Shown here one piece after another: positions 29,203 through 46,397 of a DNA stretch of 64,000 nt. Numbering within the stretch: the first letter of the stretch is position 1; each line of letters opens with the position of its first letter. The DNA lies in the NCBI GenBank assembly GCA_947591245.1, contig CANQCY010000001.1, positions 124,001 to 188,000 on the forward strand. The letters run 5' to 3'. Under the pieces are notes generated by a model, which saw only the letters and a program-made list of their open reading frames with translations, searched no databases and was not told where the DNA came from. This DNA is from an uncultured Lachnospiraceae bacterium. GTDB lineage: Bacteria; Bacillota; Clostridia; Lachnospirales; Lachnospiraceae. The translations under genes and the position numbers were made by a program.

Positions 29203-29247
29203 GTGATTATGGTGTATTTTTCTATTGATTGGAGTGAAGCCGTATGA
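29203..29247 (+). other. possible 14-codon upstream ORF coupled to the PilZ gene
   Basis: GTG start 7 nt after GGAGGGG; encodes MIMVYFSIDWSEAV; stop overlaps pilZ start as ATGA. Confidence 0.35.
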
Positions 29248-30044
29248 GGAAAGTTCTGATTCATATCGGGGATAAAATTGAGATGACGCACGTGAAAAGC
29301 GCAACGAGAAGAAAGCTGTCGGATGTTAAATACGTCAGCAGCGTTCTGGAATATGACGGCAGAAGGACGGCGAAGATTTCCACGCCGATTTATGGGGGAA
29401 AAGTGATTCCCATCCAGCCGGGAGACGAGTACAACCTTTGTTTTTATACGTCCGCGGGCCTGTTTTTGAGCAGGGTAAGGGTGAAATCGCGTTTTAAGGA
29501 AAAGAATATGTTCGGTCTTTCCGTGGAGATGCTGACTCGTCCCACGAAACACCAGCGGAGGCAGTTTTTTCGCCTTGACTGCGTGATGAAAATGCGCTAT
29601 CGGATTGTAACGCCAGAGGAAAGGGAGCTTCGCGATTTCATTGCGTCGAGTAGCTTTGAGGATCCTCAAGAGCTGGAAGTCCATATGCAGAAGCTCGAAG
29701 GGATGACGGGGGACTGGGAGCGCGCAACTCTTACGGATATCAGCGGAGGAGGCGTACGCTTTAAATGCAGGGAGAACATGGAACCGGATCAGATCCTGGA
29801 GATTTCGGTACCGCTGGCATTTAAAGAAGGGACCCGGGCGTTTTGCTGCATGGTTAAGGTGGTGGCAATCGCCAATATTATGCTCAAGGGGTCGAGCGAG
29901 ATTGAATTGCGGTGCCAGTTTTTCCAGATTGAAAAAGCAAAAAGGGAGCTGGTCGTTAAATATGTATTTGAAGAACAGAGAAGGCGAATGAGAAATAAGA
30001 TTGGGGTACAGATTGCGCCGAATGAAGACATGGATGAGATGTAG
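29244..30044 (+). CDS. YcgR/YpfA-like PilZ-domain flagellar brake protein (c-di-GMP receptor)
   Basis: PTKHQRRQFFRLDC (RxxxR) and DISGGGVRF (D/NxSxxG) motifs. Confidence 0.92.
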   Translation: MRKVLIHIGDKIEMTHVKSATRRKLSDVKYVSSVLEYDGRRTAKISTPIYGGKVIPIQPGDEYNLCFYTSAGLFLSRVRVKSRFKEKNMFGLSVEMLTRPTKHQRRQFFRLDCVMKMRYRIVTPEERELRDFIASSSFEDPQELEVHMQKLEGMTGDWERATLTDISGGGVRFKCRENMEPDQILEISVPLAFKEGTRAFCCMVKVVAIANIMLKGSSEIELRCQFFQIEKAKRELVVKYVFEEQRRRMRNKIGVQIAPNEDMDEM

Positions 30045-35607: not shown

Positions 35608-37206
35608 ATGGGGAAAAATGCATATTTTCAAGTGGTACATAAGACGAATAAGACAATGCTTAAGGTGTTTCCGGCTTCCAAGGATGGGGAGATGTTTTCG
35701 GTTGACGAGGTGGTGAGGTATCTGGATCTCATCAATTTTAAAGACGTCGATACCGTAGCGCTGCACAACTATTTGAATAAAGGCGATTTTAAGTTGGAAT
35801 TTTTACTGGCAAAAAAGGAAATACTGCCGGAGGACGGAAAAACAATTACGAAAATTGAAGATCAGGGGCAGCGTGCAGTTACCCGGTTTTATCCGCCGTC
35901 GGATGGCGGCAGGAAGATGACGAGAAACGATATTCTCAGCGATCTGGCGCAGGCAGGCATTGTTCACGGGATCCAGCAGGACGTGATCGATGAGTTTTTG
36001 AAAAATCCGGAGTTCTGCAGGGACTATGTGGTTGCTGTTGCAACGCCGCCGGTACAGGGACACGACGCGGTAGTAGAGTATCATTTTGATATCAATACGA
36101 CGGCAAAACCCAAATTAAATGAAGATGGCAGCGTAGATTTTCATCAATTGGGGAATATTAAGCCTGTGGAAGTTGGCGACAAGCTGGCGACCCTTACGCC
36201 CGCAGACCGTGGAAAGCCCGGGATTAACGTATTGGGAGGAGCGCTTCCTCCGGTGAAGGTGGCGGTGAAGCACCTTCGGTTCGGAAGAAATATTACGCTT
36301 TCCGAGGATAAGTGTGAAATCTATTCGGATGTTGCCGGTCATGTAACTCTTGTGGACGACATGGTTATGGTTTCCGATGTGTATGAAGTGCCGGCAAATG
36401 TGGACTCTTCTACTGGCGATATCGAATATAACGGAACCGTAAATGTGGTAGGAAACGTCAATACGGGATATGAGATCCGTGCGGAGGGCGATATTATTGT
36501 AAATGGAGCCGTCGAGGGCGCGACGCTCATTGCCGGGGGCAACATCGTGCTAAAGCGCGGCATGCAGGGCATGAACCGGGGAACTCTTGAAGCGGAAGGA
36601 AATATTACGGCTAAATTTATCGAGAACAGCACAGTGAAGTGCAACGGCACGTTGATGTGCGACGCGGTGCTCCACAGCGATGTGGAGTGCAACGGAAAAA
36701 TTTCGATCCTTGGAAGAAAAGGGCTTATCAACGGAGGGCATATTCGTTCGTACACGGATATTGCGGCGACGCAGCTCGGATCCTCCATGGGAATTACTAC
36801 ATCTGTAGAAATCATGTCTGATGTGGATCTGATCAAGAGGCAGAACGATATCGGAGAGAAGGTTGAGGAAACAAACGCTGCCCTTCAGAAAATGAATGTA
36901 GTGCTTATCGCCATCAAAAGATCCATCAATGAGGGCAATGAGATTACGCCGGAGCAGGAAAGGTATCTTAAAATGGCGGCTAAGACAAAACCGATATTGA
37001 AAAAGCAGATTCGGGATATGGAGCATGAATACGATAATTTACAAAAGGTGATTGATTCTACGCAGCATGCGAGCATAAAGGTGGAAAGCGTAGTAAATGC
37101 CGGCGTCCGCATTATTATTCAGGATGTCACGCGCATTATTAATGACAATGTTTCCAGATGTAAGTTTGTCCGCGAAGGGGCGGATGTGAAAATTTTAGGA
37201 TTGTAA
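35608..37206 (+). CDS. FapA (DUF342) family protein
   Basis: 532 aa; beta-helix-like NGTVNVVGNVNTGYEIRAEGDIIVNGAVEGATLIAGGNIVLKRGMQG; typical FapA location after sigD. Confidence 0.9.
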   Translation: MGKNAYFQVVHKTNKTMLKVFPASKDGEMFSVDEVVRYLDLINFKDVDTVALHNYLNKGDFKLEFLLAKKEILPEDGKTITKIEDQGQRAVTRFYPPSDGGRKMTRNDILSDLAQAGIVHGIQQDVIDEFLKNPEFCRDYVVAVATPPVQGHDAVVEYHFDINTTAKPKLNEDGSVDFHQLGNIKPVEVGDKLATLTPADRGKPGINVLGGALPPVKVAVKHLRFGRNITLSEDKCEIYSDVAGHVTLVDDMVMVSDVYEVPANVDSSTGDIEYNGTVNVVGNVNTGYEIRAEGDIIVNGAVEGATLIAGGNIVLKRGMQGMNRGTLEAEGNITAKFIENSTVKCNGTLMCDAVLHSDVECNGKISILGRKGLINGGHIRSYTDIAATQLGSSMGITTSVEIMSDVDLIKRQNDIGEKVEETNAALQKMNVVLIAIKRSINEGNEITPEQERYLKMAAKTKPILKKQIRDMEHEYDNLQKVIDSTQHASIKVESVVNAGVRIIIQDVTRIINDNVSRCKFVREGADVKILGL

Positions 37207-37227
37207 TAGAAAGGCAGGGTGATTGTT

Positions 37228-37530
37228 ATGCCGATCAGTGCAATTGACGCTTCTACGATCGCGCCGCGTTCCGCTGAAGCATCCAGTTTGGTGGGAAAAG
37301 AGCAGCAGCAGATTCATCATGTCGGAGAAAATGGCGCCGTTAGTTTTCAGCAGAATGTCGAGCAGAAAAGCCAGCGCACGGTGGAAACTGCAAAAAGCGA
37401 GACGGACGAGTACAACTATGAAGGCTCCGGTTCCGGTAAATATCAGGACGGAAGAAAAAAGAAGAAAAAGGAAGGAAAGGAAGCCCCCGTTGCTCCGCGT
37501 TCAAATAGCAGTTTTGACATTATGGTGTAG
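37228..37530 (+). CDS. small disordered protein of the sigD-downstream region, unknown function
   Basis: MPISAIDASTIAPRSAEASSLVGKEQQQIHHVGEN...SSFDIMV; RBS aggcagggtg; polar/charged composition. Confidence 0.75.
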   Translation: MPISAIDASTIAPRSAEASSLVGKEQQQIHHVGENGAVSFQQNVEQKSQRTVETAKSETDEYNYEGSGSGKYQDGRKKKKKEGKEAPVAPRSNSSFDIMV

Positions 37531-37550
37531 AAGAAAGGTAAAGCTTTAGG

Positions 37551-38420
37551 ATGAATATAGCAGAAGTACTATTACTGATACTCGGTTTTGCGAGCGTCTC
37601 AATTAGTTTTTTTATAGGAAACAGGGAAAAGGGCAAAGCGCCGGAGGGGACGGAAGAGGATGCTTTTTCGAGAGACATTTGGACGGAAAAAGAAGAAGAG
37701 CTTGTCCGGGATCAGATTACCCGTATTTTAAAAGAAGAAAGGGAGAACATTGTCGTTGAGACTACCAATCTTCTTAATCGGAGAAGCAATGAGAAAATTA
37801 TGGAATTTGACGAATTTTCCAGTCAGCTTATGGCAAAGATCAACCACAATCATGACGAGGTTGTATTTATGTATAATATGCTGACGGAGAAAGAAAAAGA
37901 ATGGAAAGAAGCGGCGGCAGCGTCAAAGCCGCAGCCAACGGCAAAACCGCAGCCAGACGCTCCGGTCAGGCAGCAGGAGGATGTGCGGGCGTCCAAAGAG
38001 ACAGTCCCGGGGCCATCGCCATCTGCGTCGCCGGTTCAGGAAGCAAAGCCGGCAAAAAGGCAGAAGGCTGTTGCCGGGAATGCGGCTCCTGCATCAAAAT
38101 ACGCTGCGAAACAGGAGACGGGACTGGAACAGCTGACAAAACGTGCAAAAATGACGGCGGATGCCGCGCCGCAGAAACCGGGGCGCGAGCCGGATAAAAC
38201 AGTAATTGCGGAACAACCGTTGGGAGCCGCGCCCGAACAGGCGGCAGCTCAGATGGAAAAGACGCCTGAAACGACGGAAAACGGCAGTACGGACAACGTG
38301 AATAGCAAGATTGTCAAAATGTACAGGCAGGGAAAATCAATATTAGAAATTTCAAAGCTTCTGAACGTCGGGCAGGGCGAGGTAAAGCTTACGATTGCTT
38401 TATACGGAGGAAACAGATGA
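37551..38420 (+). CDS. DUF6115-like membrane-anchored protein with C-terminal HTH-like motif
   Basis: N-terminal TM; Ala/Pro/Gln-rich linker; C-terminal VNSKIVKMYRQGKSILEISKLLNVGQGEVKLTIALYGGNR. Confidence 0.75.
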   Translation: MNIAEVLLLILGFASVSISFFIGNREKGKAPEGTEEDAFSRDIWTEKEEELVRDQITRILKEERENIVVETTNLLNRRSNEKIMEFDEFSSQLMAKINHNHDEVVFMYNMLTEKEKEWKEAAAASKPQPTAKPQPDAPVRQQEDVRASKETVPGPSPSASPVQEAKPAKRQKAVAGNAAPASKYAAKQETGLEQLTKRAKMTADAAPQKPGREPDKTVIAEQPLGAAPEQAAAQMEKTPETTENGSTDNVNSKIVKMYRQGKSILEISKLLNVGQGEVKLTIALYGGNR

Positions 38421-38971
38421 AAATAAAATGGTTTATAAGAGGGCTTGGTGCAGGCATTATCATCACCGCCCTTATTCTTTGCATCACATACCGGAGCGAT
38501 TCCAAAAGCAGCAATATCATCGAGCAGGCGAAAAAGCTCGGCATGGAATTTCCGAAAAAGACGGAGCAAGACCAGCCTGCGGAAGCGAGCGAACGGCCGT
38601 CAGCGGCGCCGCCGGAAGCGCCTACCAGTGCCGCGGTGCAGGCGGCGGACGGCGGGCAGGCGGCGGAAACCGGCAAGGAACAGTCGGAGGCAGACCGGAA
38701 GCTGAAGGACAAACTGGATAAAAGCACAGACGATATATCAAACGCATCCCGGTATAAGGAAGGCAAAAAAAGCTTTGTCGTGAGGAACGGGCTCTTATCC
38801 AGCTCCGTGGCAAGAGAGATGGAGCAGGCGGGCATTATTGATGATGCGGACGCTTTTGATGAATATATAGAAAAGAATGGTTATGGAAAACTTGTCCGCA
38901 GCGGAAAGTATGACATTCCGGTGGGGGCGGATTTTGAAACCATTGCTAAAATAATAACGAGACAGCAATAA
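38417..38971 (+). CDS. membrane-anchored protein with MltG/YceG N-terminal (LysM-like) module, no catalytic domain
   Basis: TM anchor, disordered linker, then SSVAREMEQAGIIDDADAFDEYIEKNGYGKLVRSGKYDIPVGADFETIAKIITRQQ; stop before any lytic transglycosylase domain. Confidence 0.7.
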   Translation: MKIKWFIRGLGAGIIITALILCITYRSDSKSSNIIEQAKKLGMEFPKKTEQDQPAEASERPSAAPPEAPTSAAVQAADGGQAAETGKEQSEADRKLKDKLDKSTDDISNASRYKEGKKSFVVRNGLLSSSVAREMEQAGIIDDADAFDEYIEKNGYGKLVRSGKYDIPVGADFETIAKIITRQQ

Positions 38972-40956: not shown

Positions 40957-40977
40957 ATCTGGTTTGATGTGGACATT

Positions 40978-41033
40978 TGACTCCGGGCATCGGAAATTTC
41001 TCAAATTTTTGGCGTTCGGGGTCAGATTTTTTT
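40978..41033 (+). terminator. intrinsic terminator downstream of tsf
   Basis: TGACTCCGGGC / GTTCGGGGTCA stem (with G-U pairs) followed by gATTTTTTT. Confidence 0.75.
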
Positions 41034-41060
41034 AAAAGTGACGCCATATTAAATTTTTTG

Positions 41061-41089
41061 TTGGCAATTCGCATGAAATCGTGTATAAT
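41061..41089 (+). promoter_or_regulatory. sigma-A promoter TTGGCA-N17-TATAAT for the GGDEF gene
   Basis: TTGGCA 41061-41066; TATAAT 41084-41089. Confidence 0.75.
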
Positions 41090-41146
41090 AAATTGTATGT
41101 ATATTTTGGAGATTTTTAGCTAAAACATATATTGGGGATGAAAATT

Positions 41147-43072
41147 ATGTTTGAAAATGGCAGGAAAAACTTATGTGTGATTCTCTGTGATGTGGCGAAT
41201 CATTATCAGGAGCAAGTATGCAGAACAATTACTTCCTGTGCTCTGGCAAGAGGATATAATGTTTCTTATTTTTCCTTTTTTACATGTTATGGCGTGGATA
41301 CGGACAATGGCATCGGCGAGATGAATATTATTAACCTCGTCCCATACGAGCGGTTTGATGGTTTTGTGATCTGCCACGATACGTTTTTTAACAAGTTTGC
41401 TGTTGAAGAAATCTTTAAATATATTAAAGAGAGAACAAAAACGCCGGTAATTACGCTGCGCAGACAGTGGGAGGATTATCCTTGCGTACTGACTGACAAT
41501 TCCGGTTCCATACAGAAGGTTGTCCAGCATTTGGTCGATGTTCACGGATTCAAGCGCATTGCCTTTATGAGCGGGCCGGCGGAGCATCCGGATGCGCAGC
41601 AGCGTCTGAGGGATTATAAGGAAGGAATAGAGAGCCGGGGGATCGCATATGATGAGGGGCTGATCTTTTTCGGAGACTTTTGGAAAAAGAAGGCAAAAGC
41701 GGCGGTGCGCTATTTTTTGACGGAAATACCGGAAAAGCCGGAGGCGATCGTGTGCGCCAATGATTATATGGCGCTTTCCCTCTGCAATGAACTGATTAAT
41801 CAGGGAACGATGGTGCCGGATGACATTGTAGTCACCGGATTTGATAATATATGGGAAACGTCGACTTATATGCCGCCCGTGACAACGGTTGCGGTGCCGG
41901 TGGAAAAGATGAGCGAGATTGCCTTTGACACCTTGGAGAAAATGATTAACGGTGAAGAGGTTCCGAATATACAGACCGTTCCGACCGAGCCGGTGTACCG
42001 CAATTCCTGCGGGTGTGCGGACATGGATTTTAAAACGATGGTGAAACGCAGCGTCCGGCAGAGTAAAGAAAGCGAGAGCATTCAGGAGCTGATAAACAGC
42101 AATATGCATATGGTCGTGGCGATGGCGGGCGTGGATTATGCGGAAGAGCTGGTGGAACATGCCAGGATTGTCGGGGATAGGGAAAATTATATACGGAATC
42201 TGTTTATCTGCCTCGGCGAGGGAGAAGGGGATGTTTATCCGAAATACTGTTCCGAGGAACCGGGGTATCCGACGCGCTTCAAATCAGTCGGCAGCGTGAT
42301 TAACAGAGAGATTGTGCAGACAGAACCGTTTGATGCGGTAGACCTTCTTCCGAAAGAGGCCGTTGTGAGCGACCCGATGATTTACTTTTTCTTTCCGCTG
42401 CACAATCTGCGGCGCACATACGGATATGTCGCCATCAATTATATGGATGTACATAGCTGTGAAAAAACGTTTCATAGCTGGATTGCGATTTTGGGAAATG
42501 CAATTGAAGGAATCCGGCTGCGGCATAAAAGCAACAGCCTTCTTAATGAGCTCAACAATTTATATGTGCACGACGCGCTGACCGGCCTTATGAACCGAAG
42601 GGGCTTTGAATACAGCGCCACGGAGCTGTATGAGAAAAGCCTGCGCGAGGGGAAGACAATGGTCATCATTTCCATCGATATGGATAATCTGAAGATTGTC
42701 AATGACCAATACGGGCATGCGCAGGGAGATGTGGCTCTTCAGGAGATCGCGGAGGCAATGGAGCGGTCTGCCGGAGAGGGCGATGTTTGTTCGCGGAGCG
42801 GTGGAGATGAGTTCGCCGTTTTCGGCATCGGATATGACAAAGCGAAGGTGAAAAGGTTTTTGGAAAAATTCCAGCAGCACCTGAATGATTTTAATGAGAA
42901 AAGCGGCCTGCCGTATCTCGTGATGGCGAGCTATGGGTATTATATTATTCCTGAGGACCATTCTGTTTCATTGGAGACTGCGCTGGTACAAAGCGACCGG
43001 TATCTGTATGATATAAAGCGGGAAAGGAAAGCAAAGAAACTTGATGACGTGGTGAGGAAGCAAAGGCAATAG
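41147..43072 (+). CDS. LacI/periplasmic-binding-type sensor fused to GGDEF diguanylate cyclase, cytoplasmic
   Basis: N-terminal LacI-like ligand fold without HTH (ALARGYNVSYFS, DGFVICHD, AIVCANDYMALSLCNELINQGTMVPDDIVVTGFDN); C-terminal HDALTGLMNRRGFE...SRSGGDEFAVFG. Confidence 0.92.
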   Translation: MFENGRKNLCVILCDVANHYQEQVCRTITSCALARGYNVSYFSFFTCYGVDTDNGIGEMNIINLVPYERFDGFVICHDTFFNKFAVEEIFKYIKERTKTPVITLRRQWEDYPCVLTDNSGSIQKVVQHLVDVHGFKRIAFMSGPAEHPDAQQRLRDYKEGIESRGIAYDEGLIFFGDFWKKKAKAAVRYFLTEIPEKPEAIVCANDYMALSLCNELINQGTMVPDDIVVTGFDNIWETSTYMPPVTTVAVPVEKMSEIAFDTLEKMINGEEVPNIQTVPTEPVYRNSCGCADMDFKTMVKRSVRQSKESESIQELINSNMHMVVAMAGVDYAEELVEHARIVGDRENYIRNLFICLGEGEGDVYPKYCSEEPGYPTRFKSVGSVINREIVQTEPFDAVDLLPKEAVVSDPMIYFFFPLHNLRRTYGYVAINYMDVHSCEKTFHSWIAILGNAIEGIRLRHKSNSLLNELNNLYVHDALTGLMNRRGFEYSATELYEKSLREGKTMVIISIDMDNLKIVNDQYGHAQGDVALQEIAEAMERSAGEGDVCSRSGGDEFAVFGIGYDKAKVKRFLEKFQQHLNDFNEKSGLPYLVMASYGYYIIPEDHSVSLETALVQSDRYLYDIKRERKAKKLDDVVRKQRQ

Positions 43073-43097
43073 ATTAAAAGGCAAGGAGGAAATTCCA

Positions 43098-43994
43098 TTG
43101 GCAAAGGACACTGGGGGAACTCTGGATTATCGGCAAAAGCGAAGAAAGAGAATTAAGACGGCCATTATAGTATTGGCCGTGACTTTACTCGTACTGCCCC
43201 TGGTACTGTCCGCGTTCCTTCTGTTCCGGGTCAGCCGCCTGGAGAACCGTCTTGACGAGCTGGTTTCTCAGAGCGGATTGCAAACGCAGAAAAGCGTGGA
43301 AACACCGGATGTGGTAAAAGCGGAGGCAAAACCGGAGACGGCGAGCGGTGCGGCCGCCGCAGCAGAGGAGGCTCCGAAAGCGAAGCGGGTGTATCTGACA
43401 TTTGACGACGGACCGAGCAGGGAAACAGAAAAGATTTTAGATATATTAAAGGAAAAGGATGTCAAAGCGACGTTTTTTGTGATCGGAAGGGAAGATGAAT
43501 TTTCTAAAACGATTTATAAGAGGATTGCAGAAGAGGGGCATACGCTTGGCATGCACTCTTATTCGCACATTAACACGGAGATATATGCATCGATGGATGC
43601 ATTTCAAAAGGATTTTAATAAACTATACAAACTGCTGCTCGGGACGACCGGCGTACAGCCGGAATATTACCGTTTTCCGGGGGGGAGCAAAAACACTGTG
43701 AACCAGATTTCGATTGATCAGTATAAGGCTTTTCTGGCAGACCAGGGGGTTTCTTATCAGGACTGGAATGTGATTGCGGCCAACAGCACGACGGATGATG
43801 TTTCTCGGAAACAGATGGTTCAGTCTGTTTTGGACGGAGTATCGCAGTATGAAACGTCGATCGTGCTTTTATATGATTCTGCAGACAAGAAAATGACGGC
43901 AAAATCCATAGGGACGATTATTGACCGCCTCAGAGCGGGCGGGTATGAAATCTTGCCGATTGATGAGGACACAACGCCTGTGCAGCATTCGTAA
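43098..43994 (+). CDS. membrane-anchored polysaccharide deacetylase (NodB domain; TTG start)
   Basis: N-terminal TM; KRVYLTFDDGPSRETEKILDILKEKDVKATFFVIG; GMHSYSH; YRFPGGS. Confidence 0.93.
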   Translation: MAKDTGGTLDYRQKRRKRIKTAIIVLAVTLLVLPLVLSAFLLFRVSRLENRLDELVSQSGLQTQKSVETPDVVKAEAKPETASGAAAAAEEAPKAKRVYLTFDDGPSRETEKILDILKEKDVKATFFVIGREDEFSKTIYKRIAEEGHTLGMHSYSHINTEIYASMDAFQKDFNKLYKLLLGTTGVQPEYYRFPGGSKNTVNQISIDQYKAFLADQGVSYQDWNVIAANSTTDDVSRKQMVQSVLDGVSQYETSIVLLYDSADKKMTAKSIGTIIDRLRAGGYEILPIDEDTTPVQHS

Positions 43995-44086
43995 GGATGT
44001 CGGGGAACAGTTTCCCGGGCAGGGTTGATATAAATAAGTACCGGATACTGCGTGCGGGGTTCCGGCGATGTTTAGGAGGAAGAGAA

Positions 44087-45097
44087 ATGAGCTTTTTTAA
44101 AGAACTAAAAGAAGATATTGTTCAGTCGGTGAACGAGCTGAGCGATTCCCTTGACGAATCCATTGCTGACGATGAAATAAAGGATGAAAAAAGTAGCGGC
44201 GGAGAACTGGAAAAGGAGATCCAGCGGGAGATTCAGCAGGAAATCAATTCAATACTGGATGGCGATGAGCTGTCGGGCGATACGCCGGATAAAGAATCTG
44301 ATGCAGAGAATCCGCCGGATCAAGATTTAGAGGGGCCGCAGGCTGATTCGGAAGAAACGGCGTCCGAAACACTGGAATTGCAAGAAGCTGAGGACGAGCG
44401 GCAGAAGGAAGAAGAGATGTCAGATCTTGAAAAAATGGCTGCAGAGCAAATGGGATTTGGAGATGCCGGCTTCGAGGATGGCGGCAGCCTCAGAGAGGCG
44501 ATTGAATCCATGAGAAAAGAATTTGAGGAAGAGGCTCAGAAAGAAGAAAACGAGGAGGTTGCTGAAATGAAGGATAATGGCATGGATAATGTTGAGGAAG
44601 AGCAGGGCGTAGACAGCAGGGACGACATGAATGATGGAGGCAATACGCATAACAGTGATGAGACGACTGTGATTACAAAGGGAACAACGATCAACGGCGG
44701 TATCCGGTCCGACACATCGCTTGTCGTAAAAGGCGTGATTGAAGGCGATGTAGAGTGCCAGGGCAAGCTGACGATTACAGGCCGCGTGGCAGGAAACAGC
44801 GTGGCGTCAGAAATTTATGTCAACACGCCGCGGCTGACGGGAAATCTTGTTAGTAAGGGCAGCGTGAAAGTGGATGTGGGAACGGTTGTGATCGGCAATA
44901 TATCCAGCGCGTCCGTAGTCGTAGCCGGCGCCGTAAAGGGTGATATCGATGTAAACGGTCCGATTATCGTGGATTCGACAGCAGTAGTACAAGGCAGCAT
45001 TGTAGGAAAATCCATTCAGATCAACAGCGGCGCTGTTGTGGATGGCATGTGTTCGCTTAAGTATGCTGATGTGGATTTGGATTCATTTTTTGAATAA
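44087..45097 (+). CDS. bactofilin with long acidic N-terminal extension
   Basis: about 200 aa Glu/Asp-rich region, then VITKGTTINGGIRSDTSLVVKGVIEGDVECQGKLTITGRVAGNSVASEIYV repeats. Confidence 0.9.
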   Translation: MSFFKELKEDIVQSVNELSDSLDESIADDEIKDEKSSGGELEKEIQREIQQEINSILDGDELSGDTPDKESDAENPPDQDLEGPQADSEETASETLELQEAEDERQKEEEMSDLEKMAAEQMGFGDAGFEDGGSLREAIESMRKEFEEEAQKEENEEVAEMKDNGMDNVEEEQGVDSRDDMNDGGNTHNSDETTVITKGTTINGGIRSDTSLVVKGVIEGDVECQGKLTITGRVAGNSVASEIYVNTPRLTGNLVSKGSVKVDVGTVVIGNISSASVVVAGAVKGDIDVNGPIIVDSTAVVQGSIVGKSIQINSGAVVDGMCSLKYADVDLDSFFE

Positions 45098-45112
45098 GGC
45101 GTGGTAAGGAAT

Positions 45113-45817
45113 ATGAAATATAAAAGAATTTTATTAAAATTAAGCGGCGAGGCGCTTTCGGGCGACAAGGGCGCGGGTTTTGACGAGGCGACCTGCATCC
45201 GGGTGGCAGGACAGATTAAGACGCTGGCGGACGGCGGCTGCCAGGTGGCGGTCGTCATAGGCGGCGGCAATTTCTGGAGAGGCAGAACGAGCGGCATAAT
45301 CCAGAGGAATCAGGCGGATCAGATCGGAATGCTGGCTACAGTGATGAATTGTATTTATATGTCGGAAATGTGCAGGCATGAAGGGTTGATGACACAGGTG
45401 CTTACACCGTTTGAATGCGGCTCTTTCACAAAACTTTTCAGCCGTGACAGGGTAGAGAAATATCTTTCAAAAAATATGGTCGTATTTCTCGCCGGCGGAA
45501 CGGGCCATCCGTATTTTTCTACGGATACGGCGACGGCGCTCCGGGCGGTGGAGATTCAGGCGGATGCCATTTTAGCCGCCAGATCAGTGGATGGCGTCTA
45601 TGACTCGGATCCGAAATCAAATCCGAATGCAAAGAAATACGATACGATTCCGATTTCAAAAATCATAGACGAAAAGCTGGGCGTTGTCGACCTGACAGCG
45701 GCGGTCATTTGTTACGAAAATAAGATGCCGCTGTGCGTGTTTGGCCTGAACGAAGAAAACAGTATTGTGAACTGCGTAAATGGCAGCTGTTCAGGGACAG
45801 TCGTTACAGCGGATTGA
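45113..45817 (+). CDS. pyrH: uridylate kinase
   Basis: KYKRILLKLSGEALSGDKGAGFD; VVIGGGNFWRGRT; DQIGMLATVMNCIYM. Confidence 0.98.
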   Translation: MKYKRILLKLSGEALSGDKGAGFDEATCIRVAGQIKTLADGGCQVAVVIGGGNFWRGRTSGIIQRNQADQIGMLATVMNCIYMSEMCRHEGLMTQVLTPFECGSFTKLFSRDRVEKYLSKNMVVFLAGGTGHPYFSTDTATALRAVEIQADAILAARSVDGVYDSDPKSNPNAKKYDTIPISKIIDEKLGVVDLTAAVICYENKMPLCVFGLNEENSIVNCVNGSCSGTVVTAD

Positions 45818-45842: not shown

Positions 45843-46397
45843 ATGGAATTTAGTACAGATGCATATAAGGAGAAAATGGAAAAGTCGTTATCCAATCTTC
45901 AGGATGAATATATTTCGATTCGTGCCGGACGGGCGAATCCGCACATTCTTGATAAAATCCAAGTGGATTATTATGGAACGCCGTCTTCTCTTCAGACGGT
46001 GGCGAATATTTCCGTGCCGGAGGCGAGAATGATCTTGATTCAGCCGTGGGAGGCGAGCCTGATCAAGGAGATTGAAAAGGCGATTCTTTCTTCCGATTTG
46101 GGACTCACGCCGGCAAATGATGGGAAAGCGATCCGTCTTTCTTTTCCGGAATTAACGGAGGAGCGCCGCAAAGAGCTGGTTAAGGACGTGAAGAAAAAAG
46201 GCGAGGGCGCAAAAGTCGCAGTCCGCAACATACGCCGCGATGCAAATGATGCAATTAAGAAGCAGAATAAGGCAAATGAAATTTCCGAGGATGAGCAAAA
46301 ACAGCTGGAAGATCAGATTCAGAAACTGACGGATCAGTTTATCTCAAAGATCGACGAGGCAATCGAAGCAAAATCAAAGGAAATTATGACTGTTTAA
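45843..46397 (+). CDS. frr: ribosome recycling factor
   Basis: YISIRAGRANPHILDKIQVDYYGTPSSLQTVANISVPEARMILIQPW. Confidence 0.98.
   Translation: MEFSTDAYKEKMEKSLSNLQDEYISIRAGRANPHILDKIQVDYYGTPSSLQTVANISVPEARMILIQPWEASLIKEIEKAILSSDLGLTPANDGKAIRLSFPELTEERRKELVKDVKKKGEGAKVAVRNIRRDANDAIKKQNKANEISEDEQKQLEDQIQKLTDQFISKIDEAIEAKSKEIMTV

Follow-up and report, generated by a model that had tools for sequence, protein, structure and literature searches.

The DNA stretch studied here, 64,000 nucleotides of an uncultured Lachnospiraceae bacterium (hereafter the window; G000:C1:124001-188000 of an assembly of 2.07 Mb that is 85% complete), carries genes for a GGDEF-type sensor, a polysaccharide deacetylase homologue and a bactofilin between tsf and pyrH. 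The original prediction, made from these letters alone, regarded the three genes as one insert. This view did not hold: deacetylase-bactofilin-pyrH is a family-level module, i.e., a conserved cell-envelope unit rather than a random insert, and the GGDEF sensor is an addition made within the genus. We consider it fairly probable that the bactofilin scaffold positions the bitopic deacetylase-family protein as a client via the basic cytoplasmic tail of the latter and that the wall is shaped in this way, with a CE4 protein in the place of an M23 peptidase. The module and the loss of a catalytic residue from its deacetylase suggest a little-studied way of shaping cells. The locus comprises the following features:

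40975..41034, + strand: intrinsic terminator after tsf, with a long hairpin and a run of seven U behind it (from folding)
41061..41089, + strand: sigma-A-type promoter TTGGCA-N17-TATAAT (11/12 match, top site of the region)
41147..43072, + strand: cytoplasmic sensor of 641 amino acids (aa), with a LacI-type ligand-binding domain without helix-turn-helix, an unassigned middle alpha/beta domain and a C-terminal GGDEF domain (PF13377, 1.3e-26; PF00990, 6.1e-33)
43098..43994, + strand: bitopic CE4 (NodB-fold) polysaccharide deacetylase homologue (PF01522, 8.5e-30; best solved match 5jmu)
44087..45097, + strand: bactofilin with the N-terminus MSFFKELK, a 193-aa acidic tail and a C-terminal beta-helix domain (PF04519, 3.7e-20)
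45113..45817, + strand: pyrH (UMP kinase), the partner of the conserved bactofilin linkage (TIGR02075, 2e-78)
45849..46397, + strand: frr, the gene next downstream in the window and in related loci (from the list of open reading frames and the related loci)

The stop codon of tsf (40956) and the ATG of pyrH (45113) bracket exactly three open reading frames, and their domain matches (Peripla_BP_3 plus GGDEF; Polysacc_deac_1; Bactofilin; then UMP kinase for pyrH) confirm the identities that had been proposed for them. With corrected starts (ATG 41147 for the sensor, TTG 43098 for the deacetylase, ATG 44087 for the bactofilin), the gaps are 25 bases between sensor and deacetylase, 92 bases between deacetylase and bactofilin and 15 bases from bactofilin to the pyrH ATG. 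A bactofilin start at 43997 was dropped; ATG 44087 was preferred, as it is preceded by a ribosome-binding site (AGGAGG).

The pyrH region was surveyed in 150 Lachnospiraceae genomes, nearly all from different genera (most are draft or metagenome assemblies; genus and family are given as group codes). As far as possible, apparent absences caused by contig ends were left out, and at least 2.5 kb of upstream sequence was required. The premise of a conserved tsf-pyrH adjacency fails in this family: among the 50 genomes having both genes on one contig, they lie less than 1 kb apart in two (G110 and G062). The idea that a usual adjacency was interrupted here by a single insertion is thereby rejected. 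Nine of the 50 show a gap of 1.8-2.2 kb, filled in all nine cases by deacetylase and bactofilin genes. Bactofilin stands just before pyrH in 62 of the 150 genomes (median domain-to-domain gap, 83 bp). In a sample of 148 Clostridia, it is located beside pyrH in 5/5 Lachnospiraceae carriers and in 0/~47 other carriers. Outside the genus of the window, 135 loci had enough upstream sequence; both genes were present in 44 of these, bactofilin only in 17, deacetylase only in three and neither in 71. For the most part, the genes inserted before pyrH thus represent an old gut-bacterium module, the deacetylase-bactofilin pair, and this pair is not scattered in sister species, where deacetylase, bactofilin and pyrH stay together. 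As for the translation gene tsf, its supposed link to the module is incidental: G108, of the same genus, has tsf at another place and keeps sensor-deacetylase-bactofilin-pyrH intact. The pyrH-linked bactofilin reading frame of G051 (L026:2415-3968) has a weak match to the window bactofilin and a strong, full-length one to the Pfam model (81.6 bits); a bactofilin of another class may occupy the position there.

Furthermore, deacetylase and bactofilin tend to occur together. With orthologues defined by a score of at least 287 bits in a profile search of the 150 genomes (a cut-off set by us), a clear deacetylase orthologue is present in 56 genomes, and 51 of them possess a pyrH-linked bactofilin, versus 11 of the 94 others (odds ratio 77, p = 3e-23 in a Fisher test that ignores relatedness). 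At the search threshold, the five orthologue-bearing genomes that lack a pyrH-linked bactofilin contain none elsewhere either. In loci L046, L055, L059 and L063, the deacetylase orthologue stands directly before pyrH and the bactofilin is lost; the three of these deacetylases that are complete no longer have the basic motif in their tails. At least 18 changes of the bactofilin state were counted on a pyrH/frr/uppS tree; among phylogenetically independent pairs with support, the deacetylase follows the bactofilin 6:0 on average (median p = 0.03). These data bear on the possibility that the pair stands before pyrH for the steady, growth-linked expression of the essential pyrH-frr genes, deacetylase and bactofilin acting in separate pathways. 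The neighbours pyrH and frr are housekeeping genes, and some genomes carry one gene of the pair alone, as such hitch-hiking would allow. However, co-occurrence persists in five genomes in which the deacetylase gene has left the locus and the bactofilin gene is retained (G002, G040, G070, G106, G129), and the joint gain and loss on the tree, the LmdC-like topology and the tail conservation (see below) argue against hitch-hiking as well; we regard it as improbable. A shared substitute gene beside the bactofilin was looked for where the deacetylase is missing, and the upstream genes there mostly look mutually unrelated.

How could the two proteins work together? In the scaffold-client reading that we favour, a bactofilin polymer associated with the membrane would serve as a scaffold along its inner face. 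The beta-helix polymerisation domain of the window bactofilin scores above the gathering cut-off, and its tail is acidic (68 D/E versus 16 K/R, isoelectric point 4.05). Across loci, bactofilin starts are conserved as MSFFKELK or MGFFKxFK-like sequences of hydrophobic residues and Lys; they resemble, and are not equal to, the membrane-targeting sequence of bactofilins (consensus MFSKKKK; PMC12448750). The scaffold would capture the bitopic CE4-family protein by its short, basic tail in the cytoplasm (consensus RRKRVxRIK). The CE4 domain, on the outer side of the membrane, would thereby be held at defined places of the wall, where the pair would shape the cell wall. For the deacetylase, sequence and predicted topology give a basic cytoplasmic tail, a transmembrane helix, a linker and a CE4 domain, and the AlphaFold2 model (predicted local distance difference test, pLDDT, 82) consists of a long helix (residues 6-58), then a linker, then the NodB domain. 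In the bactofilin-linked deacetylases the tail has Arg at column 15 in 70/75 and Lys or Arg at column 20 in 73/75; the motif occurs in 0/3 complete deacetylases from bactofilin-less genomes, small numbers obtained with a motif chosen after inspection.

Several observations weigh against this model. Bactofilin occurs without a clear deacetylase orthologue in 11 genomes and the reverse is found in five, and therefore neither protein strictly needs the other. The Fisher p-value for co-occurrence takes no account of relatedness, and the phylogenetic test is marginal. The comparison of tails draws on three genomes and a motif picked after looking. Finally, among the 39 species of the genus only 17 carry the sensor, which therefore does not belong to the core device.

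The deacetylase of the genus is peculiar in its active site. The NodB fold and CE4 motifs 1-4 (TFDD, HSxxH, RxP, D(W)) are present in the window protein, and Tyr259 replaces the motif-5 His, a general acid that is reported to be strictly conserved among CE4 enzymes (PMC5855634). When the motif columns were compared in 81 aligned sequences, this His was kept in 49/50 from other genera and lost in 30/31 from the genus of the window (27 Tyr, one Gln, one Asn, one Asp). Within the genus, the metal ligands, the Arg and the motif-4 Asp are kept in 31/31 sequences and the base Asp in 29/31 (Glu in two). The ratio of non-synonymous to synonymous substitution rates (dN/dS) between near species is 0.08-0.2, i.e., the gene is under purifying selection and is not a decaying pseudogene. 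As the motif-5 His is lost and yet purifying selection persists, a pseudo- or altered enzyme is predicted, and the genus deacetylase is probably a non-catalytic or altered wall-binding protein. It could instead still be active on peptidoglycan, with Tyr259 or a neighbouring residue as proton source, and the retained residues as well as the strong purifying selection would fit such an enzyme. The strict conservation of the His described for CE4 enzymes and the variety of its replacements (Gln, Asn and Asp as well as Tyr) argue otherwise, and CE4 pseudoenzymes are known (7bkf and 6hpa; the inactive BA0330/BA0331, PMC4505593); continued activity appears rather doubtful to us. The sole motif-5 His of the genus (L181:2831-3826, G314) belongs to an apparently different CE4 gene with another N-terminus in the deacetylase position; it looks here as though another client had been taken into the module in exchange.

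The sensor is a later, recent addition to the module within the genus. Its orthologues (49-62% identity) are found in the 17 species mentioned above, the window included, directly before deacetylase-bactofilin in all carriers (in G311 directly before bactofilin, the deacetylase being lost). The gene upstream of the sensor is tsf only in the window and in G306, and other loci of the same genus (L175-L182, L186) have the order tsf-deacetylase-bactofilin-pyrH and no sensor. The presence of the sensor changes five times on the genus tree, and therefore the order of its gain and loss is uncertain. Its AlphaFold2 model (pLDDT 80.6) matches LacI-family folds; no helix-turn-helix DNA-binding domain was found in it, the alignment beginning at CytR position 67. 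The GGDEF active-site motif is intact in the window protein, and GGDE is invariant in eight aligned sequences; the optional RxxD I-site is absent from the sensor, which has GEGD at that position. In this part of the genus, the cytoplasmic LacI-type/GGDEF sensor, with a promoter of its own, stands at the head of the unit. Its likely role would be the synthesis of cyclic diguanosine monophosphate (c-di-GMP) upon sensing a small, probably sugar-like molecule of the cytoplasm.

The genome contains eight GGDEF and two PilZ matches, and c-di-GMP signalling is therefore likely in this bacterium. A YcgR-type PilZ protein, encoded at 29244-30044 of the window within a flagellar/chemotaxis cluster and not far from the sensor, is a candidate receptor for c-di-GMP. 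A c-di-GMP link to the bactofilin or the deacetylase is plausible. There is, however, close to an even chance that the sensor is a free-standing regulator that landed upstream and whose c-di-GMP acts on flagella through this PilZ protein and not on the wall module. The location of the PilZ gene ahead of rpsB-tsf, a 33% paralogue of the sensor elsewhere in the same genome and the small number of GGDEF proteins near the locus in other genera (about chance level in our judgement) are in line with this, but the place before deacetylase/bactofilin is kept in 17/17 species while the upstream sequence varies. GGDEF proteins as a general partner of the locus were considered and rejected, the upstream GGDEF-type reading frames of G125 and G039 being at about chance level.

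The original prediction also concerned signals of transcription, and here the sequence data support it. The fold of 40957-41060 (-35.4 kcal/mol, z = -4.9, 0/200 shuffles equally good) bears out the terminator after tsf, which was missed by a mechanical scan and recovered by folding. The strong TTGGCA-N17-TATAAT promoter is confirmed by its score and by its conservation: identical hexamers with the same spacing are present 84-94 bases ahead of the sensor ATG in eight species, and a ninth (L201) has a TTGGCT form. Upstream of this promoter, tsf is found in the window and in L201; in the other promoter-bearing loci it was not found in the sequence covered. Of the eight species with the promoter, seven had no tsf found upstream, and the promoter is therefore not a chance match. 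In the clade of L007 and L202-L206, the sensor is preceded at the corresponding place by a different kind of promoter, in which the conserved sequence AAGTGGAAA lies 5' of TATAAT. No terminator-like structure was found by folding ahead of the bactofilin and ahead of pyrH, in agreement with the predicted lack of a visible terminator before pyrH. Read-through from the sensor promoter into pyrH is probable as judged from the sequence, and this promoter probably also drives pyrH-frr. The most far-reaching version of the model would have a catalysis-free CE4 client of bactofilin throughout the genus, under c-di-GMP control by a sugar-type sensor heading the pyrH/frr transcript, so that one promoter would set nutrient state, wall shaping and growth genes; we deem this combination unlikely.

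Upstream of the insert, the flagellar/chemotaxis cluster (genes for FlgE-type, FliP, FlhB, FlhA, FlhF, MinD-like, YcgR-PilZ, CheB and CheA proteins and a sigma factor) is followed by fapA, DUF6115 and YceG-like genes (35608-38971, between the sigma factor gene and rpsB), then by rpsB and tsf. The position of fapA/DUF6115/YceG-like before rpsB resembles the sigD-swrB-rpsB region of Bacillus. In an Rfam search at the gathering cut-off, a tRNA was the sole match.

Bactofilin function in Clostridia seems to be almost unstudied, and in open-access full texts we found no paper combining bactofilin with polysaccharide deacetylase, pyrH or Lachnospiraceae. If our reading is true, the wall-enzyme clients of bactofilins are of at least two kinds, with CE4 deacetylases besides M23 peptidases, and the pair would contribute to the shape of a major gut-bacterial family. 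The genus without motif-5 His and the close genera that have it represent a natural experiment on the client's need for catalysis.

Of the known systems, the closest solved structure to the deacetylase is the peptidoglycan GlcNAc deacetylase 5jmu of Eubacterium rectale (E = 1.7e-36, TMt 0.85), which keeps the motif-5 His, whereas the window protein has Tyr259 there. CE4 pseudoenzymes with solved structures are 7bkf (BA3943 of Bacillus anthracis) and 6hpa. BA0330 and BA0331 of B. anthracis are inactive CE4 proteins, BA0331 being needed for cell shape (PMC4505593). Like the genus deacetylase, they and BA3943 are NodB-fold proteins that are inactive or have altered motifs; they differ in being lipoproteins or otherwise anchored and in their motif changes, and no bactofilin is mentioned in the passages on them. 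Csd1 and Csd2 of Helicobacter pylori are M23-type and not CE4 proteins, and we know of no pyrH linkage for CcmA-Csd1/Csd2. The bactofilin complex of CcmA includes a non-enzymatic homologue of its wall enzyme (PMC9507126), and to that extent it resembles our locus, in which the wall-enzyme homologue is probably non-catalytic or altered. The sensor shares its domain combination with the Periplas_BP/LacI-GGDEF proteins of a census, for which a review gives no experimentally validated role (PMC8846402), and differs from them by its tie to a bactofilin locus. The M23 peptidase LmdC has a transmembrane helix, a coiled coil and, in the cytoplasm, a short N-terminal tail by which it binds bactofilin (PMC10945521). 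As in the bactofilin-LmdC pairs (BacA and M23 endopeptidase; Hyphomonas neptunium, Rhodospirillum rubrum), the bactofilin gene of the window adjoins a gene for a bitopic envelope enzyme, and the predicted topology of the latter (N-terminal cytoplasmic tail, one transmembrane helix, extended linker, extracytoplasmic domain) is that of LmdC. Unlike in those pairs, the extracytoplasmic domain is CE4/NodB, the genes are linked to pyrH and a catalytic residue is missing in the genus. Only Polysacc_deac_1 was matched in the deacetylase and an M23 peptidase domain was not found; therefore, the protein is not an LmdC, but may work in an LmdC-like manner.

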